IMG/VR virus record: IMGVR_UViG_3300046817_000473
Span: 1 to 23,809 of that record
Reading direction: 5' to 3' (one strand)
From: a virus
Length of the DNA: 23,809 nt
Shown: in pieces, positions 7,489 to 22,501 of the stretch
Position numbering within the stretch: position 1 is the stretch's first letter
Layout of the letters: each line of letters opens with the position of its first letter
Position numbers and translations under genes: made by a program
Notes under the pieces: generated by a model
What the model was told of the DNA's origin: nothing
What the model saw: the letters and a program-made list of their open reading frames with translations, nothing else
Database searches by the model: none

Positions 7489-8199
7489 TTAAGCCGGCAA
7501 CTGGGAGGAAACATTCCTGCGCCGGCTGACGATCCAGCCTAACCCGACCAGACCGACCCCCATCAGCGCCAACGACGCCGGCTCACCGGCCGGCACCACG
7601 TCGGCACTGGCGCTGAAGTTGATCTGCGCGCCCGCGTTCAGCGTGATGTCGAGTTCCTGCGTCAGCGAGAACAGCCCGCCCAGCGCGGCAATCGCCAGGC
7701 TGTCACTGTTGGCACCGGAACCCGGCAGCGTGATGTTCGCGGCGATCGTCGGCGTCGTGAACGCACCGCAAGTGCTCTGAACATTGGCACCGTTCACGCA
7801 GGCCGTGCTGTCGAACACGTTCTGTGCCCCGCCCACCAGCACTGTGCCGCTGATGTTGTTCAGCAACGTGACGCTGCCGGTCGGCGCGCTGTAGTCGGTG
7901 TCGCCGACGCGCAGCACGATGCTCTGGGTCGCGCTGCTGGTGTTGATCAGATCCACTGTCGCCTGAAGGACGCTGGCGGATGTCGGCGTGCCGGGGCTGT
8001 TGGATGTGGCGCCGAGGATGGTGAACTGCATGCCGGCGCTATCGGTGAACACGACACCTGGCGTGCAGCTCGGCCCGCCGCTGCAGATCGTGGTGAACGC
8101 GCCGCCGTTGACGCTCTCATCGAGGATCAGCGTGGCATTGGCGGCATAAGGGACGCTGAAGCCGAGCAGCGCAGTAGCAGCGAACAGGGCGTGTCTCAT
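7489..8199 (-). CDS. Secreted protein with PEP-CTERM sorting signal (236 residues)
   Basis: The product begins with a signal peptide (MRHALFAATALLGFSV, probable cleavage after YAANA). A beta-rich, threonine- and serine-rich domain containing two likely disulphide pairs follows (TICSGGPSC and ACVNGANVQSTC). At residue 202 it ends in VPAGEPASLALMG, a hydrophobic helix and an arginine cluster (SRRRN). That tripartite tail is the PEP-CTERM signal, which exosortase-type transpeptidases recognise in exopolysaccharide-producing Gram-negative bacteria. The ATG at 8199 has a GGAAAG site nine bases upstream and overlaps the lipoprotein stop (ATGA). Longer in-frame readings start inside the lipoprotein gene. 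Such proteins are normally chromosomal; here it sits between terminase and portal. It is probably an accessory gene that alters the host surface. Confidence 0.85.
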   Translation of the reverse strand: MRHALFAATALLGFSVPYAANATLILDESVNGGAFTTICSGGPSCTPGVVFTDSAGMQFTILGATSNSPGTPTSASVLQATVDLINTSSATQSIVLRVGDTDYSAPTGSVTLLNNISGTVLVGGAQNVFDSTACVNGANVQSTCGAFTTPTIAANITLPGSGANSDSLAIAALGGLFSLTQELDITLNAGAQINFSASADVVPAGEPASLALMGVGLVGLGWIVSRRRNVSSQLPA

Positions 8200-8393
8200 G
8201 GTGCGGTTCTTTCCGTGGTGATGTCGGTCGGCAGGGTCTCGGTGCCTTGGAAGCCGGGCGGCGGGCATGTGATCGTCAGCGTCGTGGGGCCCAGGATCGC
8301 GATGTAGGCCGCGCAGCTCCTGAAGCTGCGACCACAGCCCGTCAGCACTACCAGCAGCGCCAGCACAGCACAGGCTGGCGCCAGCAGGATCAC
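8196..8393 (-). CDS. Small putative lipoprotein (65 residues)
   Basis: Residues 1-20 form a hydrophobic segment ending in VVLTGC, a lipobox with Cys20, so the mature part of about 45 residues would be lipid-anchored. The mature part is cysteine-containing and proline-rich (ITCPPPGFQGTETLP). The GTG start overlaps the upstream stop (GTGA) and the gene overlaps the PEP-CTERM start (ATGA), so the two are translationally linked. A short proline-rich lipoprotein resembles outer-membrane spanins such as Rz1, but no Rz-like partner overlaps it. A surface role together with the PEP-CTERM protein is an alternative. Confidence 0.65.
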   Translation of the reverse strand: MILLAPACAVLALLVVLTGCGRSFRSCAAYIAILGPTTLTITCPPPGFQGTETLPTDITTERTAP

Positions 8394-8971
8394 CGAGCGT
8401 GTTGCCGGCGCCGATGCGGCGTCGGGGTCGGCTCGGTGTCAGGCAGCGGGTAGCCGACCGTCAGGCTCGGATCGACCGCCACATACTTCCATCCGTGGTT
8501 CGGCGTGTAGCAAAGCATCCAATACGTGTCGTAGATCGGATTGCTGATCTGCGGCGGCGGCTGCGGCAGCGTATTATCGATCCCAGGCTGCGCACCGGGC
8601 AGTCCCTGATCGGGCCGCGGCTGTGACCCTGGCAGCGTGTTATCGATGCCCGGCTGGTCGCCTGGCAGCCCCTGATCAGGCCTGCCCTGGAACGGCGGCA
8701 AGCCCGCGTCAGGATACGGCGGGTTCGGGCTCGGCCAGATCGTGCCAGGCGGCACACTGGTCCCCGGCGGGATCGGCACGATCGGGTTGGCAATGGTCGG
8801 CGGCGGGAACACGCCAGGCGGCGGGCGCGGCAACGAGTTGTCGATCCCTGGCTGGCTGCCCGGCAGGGCATTATCGATCCCTGGCTGGTCGCCGGGCAGC
8901 GTGTTGTCGGGATAGTTGCTGCTCATCAGGACGCCGGTCAGGGCGCCTCCCGTAATGCGAAACGTGGCCAT
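8390..8971 (-). CDS. Proline/glycine-rich 11-residue-repeat phage protein (193 residues)
   Basis: The N-terminal 20 residues (MATFRITGGALTGVLMSSNY) are followed by two blocks of 11-residue repeats with the pattern D-N/Q-x-L-P-G-x-Q-P-G-I at residues 22-54 and 99-142. A proline-rich linker lies between them, and a folded C-terminal part follows (YDTYWMLCYTPNHGWKYVAV). The tail is basic (PHRRRQHAR). Proteins with repeated PDxxLP motifs occur near late genes of several proteobacterial phages, usually annotated as hypothetical. The ATG at 8971 has a strong AGGAGA site. The repeats suggest an extended, collagen- or PPII-like rod, possibly a virion or surface fibre; the function is not known. Confidence 0.72.
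   Translation of the reverse strand: MATFRITGGALTGVLMSSNYPDNTLPGDQPGIDNALPGSQPGIDNSLPRPPPGVFPPPTIANPIVPIPPGTSVPPGTIWPSPNPPYPDAGLPPFQGRPDQGLPGDQPGIDNTLPGSQPRPDQGLPGAQPGIDNTLPQPPPQISNPIYDTYWMLCYTPNHGWKYVAVDPSLTVGYPLPDTEPTPTPHRRRQHAR
8546..8908 (-). repeat. Two blocks of 33-base coding repeats
   Basis: Three units (about 8810-8908) and four units (about 8546-8677) encode DNTLPGDQPGI-like 11-residue repeats. They are in frame and diverged at third positions, so they are protein repeats rather than a CRISPR array or regulatory iterons. Confidence 0.75.
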
Positions 8972-9574: not shown

Positions 9575-10036
9575 ATGCGCTGGACGGATCGAGAGACATA
9601 CAACCGATACTCACGAGAATACAGAGCCAAGCACCCGCTCACAGCAACACAGAAGGCTGAGCAGCGCGCTCGCGACAAAGCCCGTCAGCAGACCCCCGAA
9701 TACAAGGCTTGGGCCGCTGCTAGATATCGCGCTCGCCGTGAGGCTCTTGCGTCCCATCCTAGACCTGATCTGTGTGAAGCCTGCGGACGCCCTCCGAATG
9801 GGATGGGCGCCTTACACCTGGACCATTGCCATGCAACCAAGGCGTTCAGGGGGTGGTTATGCCACTCCTGCAATGTCACGTTGGGCGCAGTCGAAGATGA
9901 TCCGAACATCCTGCGAAAACTAGCCGAGTATCTGGACCGCTTCCCAAGACCTGACGGCGAATACGTGACGCAGGCGAAGCGCACGGAGCAGAAGCACTCA
10001 CCGCTGGAGCCGTTGCCACTGCTGGATGGCCTCTAG
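9575..10036 (+). CDS. HNH endonuclease of the recombination endonuclease VII type (153 residues)
   Basis: Residues 67-100 contain a zinc-binding pair CEAC, the active segment LHLDHCHATKAFRGWLCHSC and Asn100. The Cys67/Cys70/Cys96/Cys99 ligands and the DH-C-H element are the ββα-metal core of T4 endonuclease VII-type proteins. The C-terminal GAVEDDPNILRKLAEYL is the family's closing helix. The N-terminal 60 residues are a basic helical DNA-binding arm. The gene is on the plus strand inside a leftward operon, with its own upstream region, and its 3' end overlaps the convergent 79-residue gene by 39 bases. That suggests a mobile, free-standing endonuclease insertion. A junction resolvase used in packaging is the alternative. 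Confidence 0.88.
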   Translation: MRWTDRETYNRYSREYRAKHPLTATQKAEQRARDKARQQTPEYKAWAAARYRARREALASHPRPDLCEACGRPPNGMGALHLDHCHATKAFRGWLCHSCNVTLGAVEDDPNILRKLAEYLDRFPRPDGEYVTQAKRTEQKHSPLEPLPLLDGL

Positions 10037-15458: not shown

Positions 15459-16403
15459 TCATTCCGCCATCTCCACCTCATTGCCCCACACGTCCCAGCC
15501 AAGGCGTGGCGCTCGGGCAAACAGCTCGATGGCTGGCAGGTGCGGATACATCTCCTCGATCATCTCAGCGAAGGCCGGCGGCTTGGCGCTATGCTCACCG
15601 AGCGGCGCCTCGATCACCGAGGCATACTGCTCGCCAGGGGCCGGCGCCGGGATGTCGCCGCGCGTGCCAACCAGCAGCAACTCATGTTTGTTGCGGTTCC
15701 AGTAGCCGGTGCCGATGCGGTCCTTCAACCACACGAAATGGCTCTTGTAACAAAAGCCCCACCTCTCCATGAGGCAGAGAGCCTCCGGCAGCATCGGCAC
15801 CGTGGCCCACAGGAACAGCACGCAATCATCTGCTGCGATGCTTCGCGCATCGAGTACATCGCTGAGCTGTAGCGTCGGATAGTGGTTGTCTGCCGCCCGA
15901 TCCATGCCGGTTTCGCGCGACCACGGCTCGAAGCGCCACGGCGGGTCAGCGTACAGCACGCCATACCGTCGGTTCGGTAATGCACGCTGCCTGGCGCCTA
16001 ACTCGGTTTCTTTGGCAGCCCGCTTGTCTCGCTTGATTAAGGCCCGCAGATCGGCCACCGACAGATCCTGGTTATCGGCTACCTCCAGCAGCGGGACTGC
16101 CTGCTCGTCCCGCAACGGCGCCACAGCGCGATGATGCTCAAAACTCAAAGTGTTATGTCGACATAACACCGGCCACCGTTCAGCCACTGAACCAGCATAG
16201 CGACACGTCCCGTGCGCCGGCCCAGTCCAATCGCCCGCAGTAACAATCTGCGCTCGCTCGCCATAAGCCGCTCCGCGGTTCCACCAGTCGCCGATGTCCC
16301 ACATCAGAGATCGTGCCGACCGCTCACGTTCACCGAGCCGCAAGCCCTCGTTGCGCCACTCGTCACAGGAAACAAACGGGATAATCCGCGCCGCGTCACT
16401 CAT
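15459..16403 (-). CDS. MT-A70 family DNA N6-adenine methyltransferase (314 residues)
   Basis: The catalytic motif DPPW is at residues 153-156 (YADPPWRFEPW), preceded by RRYGVLYA and followed by the TLQLSDV and CVLFLWATVPMLPEAL strands. The later YKSHFVWLKD and HELLLVGTRGD are typical of MT-A70 phage enzymes. Residues 30-125 form an N-terminal helical domain (LMWDIGDWWNRGAAYGER, LSFEHHRAVAPL, LSVADLRALIKR) seen in related phage proteins, probably for DNA binding. It would methylate adenine in DNA, protecting the phage from restriction or marking sites. The ATG at 16403 overlaps the upstream nuclease stop (ATGA). The adjacent nuclease makes a restriction-modification-like pair possible. Confidence 0.88.
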   Translation of the reverse strand: MSDAARIIPFVSCDEWRNEGLRLGERERSARSLMWDIGDWWNRGAAYGERAQIVTAGDWTGPAHGTCRYAGSVAERWPVLCRHNTLSFEHHRAVAPLRDEQAVPLLEVADNQDLSVADLRALIKRDKRAAKETELGARQRALPNRRYGVLYADPPWRFEPWSRETGMDRAADNHYPTLQLSDVLDARSIAADDCVLFLWATVPMLPEALCLMERWGFCYKSHFVWLKDRIGTGYWNRNKHELLLVGTRGDIPAPAPGEQYASVIEAPLGEHSAKPPAFAEMIEEMYPHLPAIELFARAPRLGWDVWGNEVEMAE

Positions 16404-20391: not shown

Positions 20392-20710
20392 TAACCTGCC
20401 GCCCGCCGACGAGCTTTTCGACGTACGCGAGCAACTAAAGGCGCTATCGTCCCGCGAGCGCGATCTGCGGAGCCTCATGCTATCCGATCCGTCAGCGCGT
20501 ACCGGCAACCGCTATGCCGTCGAAATCCGCGACGTGGAGACGACCCGCACCGACATCAAGGAACTTCGCGCGAACCATCCCGCCCTGGTCGATGAGTTCA
20601 CGTTCAAGCTGACTGAACAACGCGTCGAGCTGCGCGGACTGACCGATGACGGTGAGCTGGTCAGCATCCGCAAGCTGCGGAGCGCTGAGAAATCTGGAGA
20701 CCCACAATGA
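20384..20710 (+). CDS. Hypothetical protein upstream of recT-like gene (108 residues)
   Basis: The product has a charged helix (PPADELFDVREQLKALSSRE, RDLRSLML), a beta part (GNRYAVEIRDVETTRTDIKE) and a C-terminal strand pair. The RYAVEI-x-D-V pattern resembles siphovirus Gp157- or exonuclease-accessory-type small proteins found with recT, but the family is not certain. The ATG at 20384 overlaps the previous gene by eight bases, and the end overlaps the recT-like ATG (ATGA). It may assist recombination or DNA processing. Confidence 0.62.
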   Translation: MTDNLPPADELFDVREQLKALSSRERDLRSLMLSDPSARTGNRYAVEIRDVETTRTDIKELRANHPALVDEFTFKLTEQRVELRGLTDDGELVSIRKLRSAEKSGDPQ

Positions 20711-21594
20711 ACGCTCTTGTCCCCGTCGCGATGCCACTGCAGGACATGCAGACGCTCGCCGTCGCCATCGCCAAGAGCGCCTTGTTTGGCATTAAGACGC
20801 CAGACCAGGCTCTCGTCCTCATGGCGATCGCCCAAGCCGAGGGCCGGCATCCGGTCGAGGCGGCGCGTGATTACGACATCATCAACAACCGCCCTGCCAA
20901 AAAGGCCGAGGCGATGCTGCGCGATTTCATCCTGGCCGGCGGCAAAGTCCAGTGGCACAGCCTGACCGACGAGCTGGCCGACGCCACGTTCACGCACCCG
21001 CAGACCGGCGAGGTGCGGATCGACTGGGACATGAAGCGGGCACAGACAGCCTTCGGCAAAAAGGACATGTACAGCAAATTCCCGAGGCAGATGCTGCGCA
21101 GCCGCGTTGTGTCCGAGGGTGTGCGCACGCTCTGGCCATTGGCGACGTCGGGGATGTACGAACCGGGCGAGGCGGCGGACATCCCTCCAGTCGAGCACAA
21201 CGGCCCGACGATCGAGAGCACGGCCACCGACGCCCGCGAGCAGATGAACCGAGACGTGCCGCTGAAGGCCGCCGCTGCCCCGATGCAGCGCGGCGCGAAG
21301 ATTTCCGCACAGGCACCTATGTATGAAGCATCCCTACCTGATGCACCGCGGCAGCGGACGCGCCGTGATTTCCTCGACGGCCTGGCGATTGCCCTGCGCG
21401 ACGCCCAGAGCGCCGAGGAAGTCGATCGCCTGCTATGCGGTGAAGAAACCATGCGGGCGAAGGAGAGCTTCCGCAACGGTCACCTCGATGAGTTGAACAA
21501 GCTGATTGCCGGTGCCTTGTCGAAATGGTATGTAGAGCCATCAGAGGACGACGAAGTGCATATCAAAGGCGAGGAAAATCTTGCAGCGGGCTGA
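20707..21594 (+). CDS. RecT-like single-strand annealing protein (295 residues)
   Basis: Residues 15-155 match the RecT fold seen in many phages: QALVLMAIAQAEGRHPVEAA, YDIINNRPAKKAEAMLRDF, ILAGGKVQWHSLTD, then IDWDMKRAQTAFGKK, DMYSKFPRQMLRSRVVSEGV and PLATSGMY. The second half (about 160-295) is variable and acidic. RecT proteins bind single-stranded DNA and anneal homologous strands during recombination and concatemer formation. The ATG overlaps the previous stop (ATGA). A matching exonuclease is not adjacent, although three nucleases lie on the other arm. The next gene starts inside its 3' end on TTG. Confidence 0.82.
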   Translation: MNALVPVAMPLQDMQTLAVAIAKSALFGIKTPDQALVLMAIAQAEGRHPVEAARDYDIINNRPAKKAEAMLRDFILAGGKVQWHSLTDELADATFTHPQTGEVRIDWDMKRAQTAFGKKDMYSKFPRQMLRSRVVSEGVRTLWPLATSGMYEPGEAADIPPVEHNGPTIESTATDAREQMNRDVPLKAAAAPMQRGAKISAQAPMYEASLPDAPRQRTRRDFLDGLAIALRDAQSAEEVDRLLCGEETMRAKESFRNGHLDELNKLIAGALSKWYVEPSEDDEVHIKGEENLAAG

Positions 21595-22501
21595 TCCCAC
21601 CGAACGCGCCATCCCACCGCCGGATGATAACGGCTACTGGCACTATACATACATCACCTATCATCCAGACACTGGTGAATGGTATGGCGGAAAGCACTCC
21701 ACCAACAACCTAAACGACGGATACTTGGGGTCGGGGAATTGGGTGCTCAATCATGCTGCGCGTGATGAACTCGTCATCGAAATCGCTGAGTTCTTCTACA
21801 GCGAGGAGCACGCCTATGCTGCTGAAGCTGCGCTGGTGGATTTTGCGATCATAGATGCTGACCCACTCTGCCGCAATAAGACGGAAGGCGGGTTCGGAGC
21901 TTCACGCGAAGCCGCCGCACGACGCAATGCCGAACCAGAATACTACCGTAAAAATCATGAAGGGAAGATCCGGCGCTCGGCCAACCCTCAATGGCGCCGG
22001 AAGAATCGCGAACACTTAGCCCGGCTCCACGCCGACCCAGAGTGGCAAGAGAGAGTGCGTCTGGCGAATGTTCTGAAAGGCGCCGATCAGGAGTTTCAGC
22101 AGAAGAACCGTGAGAGAATGGCTCTTCTCGCCACTAATCCGGAATGGTTACGCAAAATCCGTGAAGCAGCAGCTAAGCGTTCTGCCGATCCAGAGTGGCG
22201 ACAAATGATCCGTGCAGCCAACATCCGCCGGAGTGCCAACCCTGAATGGCGGCGCAAGAACCGTGAGACAACAGCCTGGGATGCTGCAAAAATAGCACAA
22301 CTTCGCTCGGATCCGGAATTTCAGCGGAAGTACCGCGAAGGAATAGCTCGCCGCGAGGCCAATCCCGAATATCGGCAGAAGGTGCGCGAGACAAATGCCC
22401 GACTGCGTGCGAATCCTGAATGGCAACGCAAATACCGTGAAGGAATGGCCAGGTACATTGCTAAGAAACAGGAATATGCCGACAAGTTGGCTGCCGGTTG
22501 A
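21581..22501 (+). CDS. GIY-YIG-type endonuclease with eleven 17-residue repeats (306 residues)
   Basis: Residues 20-105 look like a phage GIY-YIG nuclease: YTYITY (22-27), YGGKHSTNNLNDGYLGSG (35-52), the helix with Glu82 (HAYAAEAALVDFAI) and Asn99 followed by TEGGFG. From residue 109 to 302 come eleven tandem repeats, ten of exactly 17 residues, with the pattern R-E-x-x-A-R-R-x-A-x-P-E-W-x-x-K/I-x. One unit carries a seven-residue insertion. The repeats are basic, helical and have an invariant-like NPEW/DPEW corner, so they probably wind along DNA. The TTG start at 21581 has a GAGGAAAATC site and overlaps the recT-like stop by 14 bases. It is likely a homing-type endonuclease. The nuclease match rests on motif recognition, and its cut site is unknown. 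Confidence 0.7.
   Translation: MQRADPTERAIPPPDDNGYWHYTYITYHPDTGEWYGGKHSTNNLNDGYLGSGNWVLNHAARDELVIEIAEFFYSEEHAYAAEAALVDFAIIDADPLCRNKTEGGFGASREAAARRNAEPEYYRKNHEGKIRRSANPQWRRKNREHLARLHADPEWQERVRLANVLKGADQEFQQKNRERMALLATNPEWLRKIREAAAKRSADPEWRQMIRAANIRRSANPEWRRKNRETTAWDAAKIAQLRSDPEFQRKYREGIARREANPEYRQKVRETNARLRANPEWQRKYREGMARYIAKKQEYADKLAAG
21905..22486 (+). repeat. Eleven coding repeats of 51 bases (one of 72)
   Basis: The repeats encode residues 109-302 of the GIY-YIG-type protein with no spare residue at either end. Ten units of 17 residues plus one of 24 give 194 residues. Third-position divergence between units is high, so the array is old and maintained at protein level rather than recently expanded. 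Confidence 0.78.

Follow-up and report, generated by a model that had tools for sequence, protein, structure and literature searches.

The window analysed here is a stretch of viral DNA of 23,809 nucleotides (positions 1 to 23,809 of IMG/VR virus record IMGVR_UViG_3300046817_000473). It carries a gene for a Seg-like GIY-YIG homing-type endonuclease, the start of which overlaps the end of a recT-like gene by 14 bp, as judged from the coordinates (Table 1). The limits of the nuclease reading frame are exactly those given in a preliminary description of this DNA. We propose that the gene is located in an early operon of the phage.

Table 1. Features of the nuclease locus (window coordinates)
Feature	Position	Strand	Basis
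RecT-like annealing protein gene, upstream	20707..21594	+	phrog_561, E = 3.9e-6
Shine-Dalgarno-like GAGG	21571..21574	+	6 nt 5' of the TTG; read from sequence
Seg-like GIY-YIG homing-type endonuclease gene	21581..22501	+	ORF, 306 aa, TTG start; phrog_314 and PADLOC HEase matches
GIY-YIG catalytic domain, aa 20-105 (Y24, Y35-x-G37, H39, E82, N99)	21638..21895	+	conserved residues, AlphaFold2, Foldseek
Basic helical repeat array, aa 109-302 (ten corner-bearing 17-aa units and a degenerate C-terminal one)	21905..22486	+	spacing, chance test, AlphaFold2
Single long unit, 24 aa (RETTAWDAAKIAQLRSDPEFQRKY), with 7 additional residues (about two helical turns)	22262..22333	+	sequence; AlphaFold2 helix 221-243

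Several other genes of the window have recognizable features. On the plus strand, positions 9575-10036 encode an Endonuclease VII-like HNH protein (PF02945, E = 3.9e-18) and adjoin structural genes of the opposite strand; this gene is possibly a second mobile nuclease. The minus strand encodes an MT-A70-type adenine methyltransferase (15459-16403; PF05063, E = 5.2e-21), a likely tail-type protein with N-terminal repeats of the form GVATPTGVLQGVAxFSWSGSAWTPAG and a weakly lectin-like C-terminus (954-2627), a protein with proline/glycine-rich repeats (LPGDQPGIDNTLPGSQPG; 8390-8971) and, in what is a phage genome, a protein with a C-terminal PEP-CTERM sorting motif (7489-8268; PF07589, at the cut-off).

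The nuclease domain and its helical array

The N-terminal part of the nuclease contains YTYITY at residues 22-27, YGGKHS at residues 35-40, E82 and N99, that is, the two-part GIY/YIG motif together with the conserved Glu and Asn that define the GIY-YIG superfamily. In the alignment of 14 homologues, no change is seen at Y24, E82, N99 or G106 and hardly any at Y35, G37 and G50 (Y35 and G37 being present in at least 90%). Profile matches to homing endonuclease families were obtained as well: PHROGs assigned residues 20-228 to phrog_314, a homing endonuclease family (E = 1.8e-18), and PADLOC called the protein HEase (E = 2e-8). The GIY-YIG-type N-terminus proposed in the preliminary description is thus borne out by both motifs and family matches. 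Matches obtained by tblastn in many phages (one round being run with a permissive E-value limit) include annotated Seg-like or GIY-YIG homing nucleases; a match on Bacillus subtilis plasmid CP120584 was discarded as an unrelated coiled coil (QAELEAQRKAEEEEAKR).

Pfam and NCBIfam returned nothing credible for the window nuclease, neither GIY-YIG (PF01541) nor NUMOD3 reaching the cut-off, which in the case of PF01541 is a detection threshold and not a biological requirement; a relative, L036, matched PF01541 weakly (E = 0.25). Comparison of the nuclease with the PDB by phmmer yielded chance matches only, and a profile search of the PDB with a wider set of repeat proteins gave the I-TevI catalytic domain as its best match (1ln0, E = 1.4e-4). 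An AlphaFold2 model based on the 14-sequence alignment (pLDDT 85.8) has a nuclease domain made of strands 20-27, 34-41 and 65-72 plus helices. The best Foldseek match of this model was PD-T4-3 (9u75, E = 0.03), a GIY-YIG restriction endonuclease specific for 5hmC; the I-TevI catalytic domain (1mk0) scored TMt 0.49-0.59 with E-values of 0.46-1.5, which is not significant, and there was no match with E ≤ 0.001. Because the Foldseek matches are weak and cover the catalytic part only, the fold assignment rests mainly on the sequence motifs. Judged from its sequence, the protein is a Seg-like GIY-YIG homing-type nuclease of known kind, equipped with an unusually long chain of helices.

The charge of the protein changes from -12 over its first 106 residues to +23 over the remaining 200. 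A corner motif, [N/D/E][P/Q][E/Q][W/F/Y], occurs ten times, with spacings of 17, 17, 17, 17, 17, 17, 24, 17 and 17 residues. When the phase is set to start at RE, eleven units are obtained, ten of 17 residues and one of 24, the last of which (REGMARYIAKKQEYADK) has no corner. The 17-residue period is not due to chance: the mean BLOSUM62 score at lag 17 is 1.28, compared to a maximum of 0.17 at any lag between 5 and 59 in 2000 shuffles. Mean identity between units is 43% at the protein level and 54% at the DNA level, and the array and its duplications are therefore old.

As predicted by AlphaFold2, the array consists of one helix per unit (residues 109-117, 119-134, 136-151, 153-168, 170-184, 187-202, 204-219, 221-243, 245-260, 262-277 and 279-305), with block means of pLDDT of about 75-95 past residue 120; at a pTM of 0.40, the model gives no reliable overall shape of the array. 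A run without alignment produced almost identical array helices at low confidence (pLDDT 53). A plain coiled coil, which the preliminary description had named as the outcome that would refute its reading, was ruled out, since the proline corner breaks the helices in both runs (including the alignment-free one with its pLDDT of 53) and the predicted helices are interrupted at every corner. The same description had announced a basic helical array, in agreement with the charge and the predicted helices, and eleven repeats, ten of them of 17 residues, which is right in the RE phase, the corner count giving ten. Its NPEW/DPEW corner holds for some units only, EPEY, NPQW, DQEF, DPEF and NPEY being found in others and the last unit being cornerless. 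It had also called for a comparison of copy number in homologues: the number does differ, with ten units in the window protein versus about eight in L083 and L044, two IMG/VR relatives in which the units were counted by eye; L044 was taken for this count in place of L036, which is truncated in the alignment.

The same repeat in other phage proteins

Viral contigs were scanned with a DNA pattern that requires three [ND]PEx units in succession at 17-residue spacing; 39 stretches matched, most of which encode basic tandem helices. The 17-residue repeat is joined to GIY-YIG-like parts (L047, L059, L063, L053, L056, L075), to HNH parts (L057, L067, L074) and to HTH-like or zinc-ribbon-like parts (L069, L071), and it accompanies an intein-like segment in L058; several of these partners were assigned by eye, while Pfam supports the HNH part of L074 and the GIY-YIG part of a few proteins. 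In L058 (9658-13254, minus strand), the repeats are of the DPEF type and the intein-like segment lies in a seemingly large phage protein, perhaps a terminase. The repeat is found in dozens of phage proteins, and repeated DNA-binding modules have been published for phage homing nucleases (PMC10448857), so that the preliminary description was mistaken in calling such readers rare. The match in L054 was set aside as a chance hit to a leucine-rich sequence that is not this repeat. Repeat relatives also matched GerD, GBP_repeat, STI1-HOP_DP and nitrile hydratase, matches that we attribute to the composition of basic helical repeats. Yet another repeat (GTHHFLGGExxR...) is present in the Seg-like GIY-YIG nucleases of L032, L035, L038, L043 and L045, which have a zinc-finger-like C-terminal end (CxxCGKxGKG...H...C).

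Spacings of up to 24 residues other than 17 are mostly of 21 (eleven times) or 13 (four times) in these arrays and so differ from 17 by about one helical turn, as if units changed in length by whole turns; the 24-residue spacing of the window protein corresponds to 17 plus about two turns. The units share length and register with NUMOD3 in the few cases recognized with a custom pattern: L075 and L076 have a NUMOD3-like unit exactly 17 residues ahead of the first DP unit, and phage D479 has two NUMOD3-like units 17 residues apart. The Pfam model itself (PF07460) did not match the window protein and is touched by only 2 of 22 repeat proteins (best E = 0.039), which is why we call the repeat NUMOD3-like and not a NUMOD3 member. 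Sequence comparison thus leaves it best read as a NUMOD3-like helix outside the formal Pfam family.

With units numbered so that [ND]P occupies positions 3-4, within-array variety in 23 arrays is highest at positions 14 and 10, followed by 17 and 13; conserved are the N/D-P-E cap, the aromatic residue and the basic residues. In 22 of the 23 arrays, positions 10 and 14 both rank among the four most variable of positions 6-17, a value never reached by random position pairs in 20,000 trials; some of these arrays come from the same phages, and their units arise by duplication and conversion. Minimal changes per array were counted in the ten arrays taken as more recently duplicated (pair counts being non-independent). 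Positions 10 and 14 show 51 nonsynonymous and 7 synonymous changes, against 141 and 69 elsewhere (Fisher p = 0.0016). Positions 1, 10, 14 and 17 together show 89 and 10, which is above a neutral 75% (p = 2e-4) in a rough test whose neutral expectation was a simple one that ignores codon bias. In both comparisons the positions were picked after the data had been seen. That hypervariable positions 10 and 14 (also 17) are shared across 23 arrays and display an excess of amino-acid changes in recently duplicated units is new here.

The residues suggested earlier as determinants of specificity, after RE and after PEW, fared unequally: variable positions do exist and the former (13-14) fit, but position 7, after PEW, is unremarkable in the 23 arrays. 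From the pattern of variation, a specificity face at the variable positions is plausible. The array units have hypervariable positions, which in a TAL-effector-like code would determine the base that is read.

Distribution of the gene and proposed mode of action

An identical nuclease gene is found in three further viral contigs, which show no difference from the window across the 4-7 kb that were compared. A homologue is absent, both directly downstream of recT and elsewhere, from all 11 contigs (31-49 kb) that carry a recT homologue, contigs that may be fragments and whose RecT is 48-86% identical. The closest relative of the nuclease, L083 (55% identity), belongs to a phage that shares homologous HTH, g18804, A and RecT genes with the window; its nuclease gene lies between gene A' (1987-2229) and the next gene, upstream of recT, at a junction different from that of the window. 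The presence of the nuclease between shared neighbour genes is therefore sporadic (none of the 11 recT contigs, another junction in L083), and on the sequence comparison this pattern fits a mobile gene. In L083, GCATGACC stands at either edge of the nuclease gene, and the same sequence is present in the window at the A|B junction, which is undisturbed there. A clean insertion at an ATGA stop-start overlap would fit this. The comparison falls short of a strict empty site, because identity between A' and A is just 34% and the downstream genes differ. Genome scans found no relative of the nuclease, and a scan for a three-unit NPEW pattern gave one match, L085, a DNA tandem repeat at a contig end unlike the window protein. 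Since these scans were otherwise empty, close relatives seem to be phage-borne.

We consider it likely, with a probability of about three in four, that the protein is a free-standing Seg-like GIY-YIG homing endonuclease whose NUMOD3-like helix array places the nuclease on DNA, and that the gene spreads by homing. The acidic N-terminal domain would cut DNA, and the basic array, made of some ten short helices capped by [N/D]-P-E-[W/F/Y], would form a string of NUMOD3-like modules stretched along the target, thereby positioning the nuclease. If a co-infecting relative devoid of the gene were cut and then repaired with the gene-bearing genome as template, the gene would be copied; the neighbouring RecT-like protein may help in this repair. 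Phage GIY-YIG homing enzymes are built of a nuclease and elongated DNA-binding modules (PMC2988022, PMC3943268, PMC1564403). Against this explanation count the absence of an empty-site pair at nucleotide identity for the window's own insertion, the missing Pfam matches to GIY-YIG and NUMOD3, the weak Foldseek matches, confined to the catalytic part, and the low pTM of the model.

One variant of the homing explanation disputes only how the array acts: the array could be a sequence-nonspecific clamp or ruler, specificity coming from the nuclease domain or from a few units, and the variable positions being an exposed, unconstrained side. We give it a chance somewhat below even. The cap, aromatic and basic residues are conserved while the variable positions look loosely constrained, and phage homing enzymes of this kind have been described as less specific and as tolerating sequence changes (PMC2988022, PMC3943268); the excess of nonsynonymous changes at positions 1, 10, 14 and 17 argues the other way, as pure neutrality would give none, with the proviso that this is a rough test of a face picked post hoc. 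A bolder and rather unlikely proposal is that the units constitute an uncatalogued modular DNA reader across many unrelated phage nucleases, in which residues 10 and 14 (with 17 and 1) would touch bases, would have been diversified by selection after duplication and would, together with unit number, set the target.

Two further explanations concern what the protein does at all. That it is a domesticated interference nuclease, whose role is to cut the DNA of rival phages, of satellites or of the host more than to spread its own gene, appears distinctly improbable: its best structural match is the restriction endonuclease PD-T4-3, and homing-nuclease domains have been co-opted in phage-satellite conflict (PMC10448857), but sequence families name it a homing endonuclease (phrog_314, HEase), PADLOC gave no defence-system match ranking above HEase, and its distribution is sporadic. 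We regard a decayed, inactive relic as very improbable. Pfam misses the GIY-YIG domain, it is true, and the sequence shows no obvious equivalent of the Arg in I-TevI motif B; however, the reading frame is intact, three further contigs carry the identical gene, and Y24, E82, N99 and G106 are kept in 14 of 14 homologues and Y35/G37 in most.

Taken singly, the gene is unremarkable among those of phage homing-type nucleases. The repeat, which matches no Pfam model in the window protein, is of greater interest: it is common to GIY-YIG, HNH, HTH and intein-like phage proteins, its copy number varies, and the same unit positions are hypervariable in many arrays. If the variable positions read bases, the repeat would amount to a compact, naturally occurring modular DNA reader, and duplication and editing of its units would explain how phage nucleases come to change targets; if they do not, such arrays would still clearly exemplify a nonspecific helical clamp. 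It is the shared hypervariable positions that merit experiment.

Comparison with known systems

The Seg endonucleases of T4-like phages (SegB, SegF) are, like the window gene product, free-standing GIY-YIG enzymes encoded between phage genes, and annotated Seg-like proteins have the YxGKHST..LxDGYLGSG N-terminus seen in the window protein. In SegB, the Y/G pair of this motif is needed for activity, the Y17A/G19A protein being dead (PMC13096335). The difference lies in the array, since the Seg-like relatives of PM2, D479, phiM19 and LH2 have few NUMOD3-like units or none. I-TevI, a nuclease followed by beads-on-a-string DNA-binding modules (PMC2988022), may share its catalytic fold with the window protein; the structural match, with TMt up to 0.59, is not significant, and the profile match to 1ln0 comes from the wider set of repeat proteins. 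Unlike this intron endonuclease, the window gene is not in an intron and its array is made of tandem repeats of a single type, in which neither a zinc finger nor a C-terminal HTH was recognized.

Closer in architecture are Burkholderia phage Maja QOV06330.1 and phage FLC6 gp69, annotated GIY-YIG nucleases that combine the same [ND]PE[FYW] 17-residue repeats with a GIY-YIG domain. They have fewer units (6 and about 5, respectively), their GIY-YIG domains pass the Pfam cut-off whereas that of the window protein does not, and the Maja protein has a weakly HTH-like C-terminal part. The T5orf172 homing nucleases are GIY-YIG-like phage enzymes with tandem zinc-finger modules that expand and contract (PMC10448857). 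Their modules are zinc fingers, those of the window protein short proline-capped helices. TAL effectors are built of tandem helical repeats of about 34 residues, in which a conserved frame holds a few hypervariable positions. The window array, with 17-residue units of one helix each, resembles them in layout.
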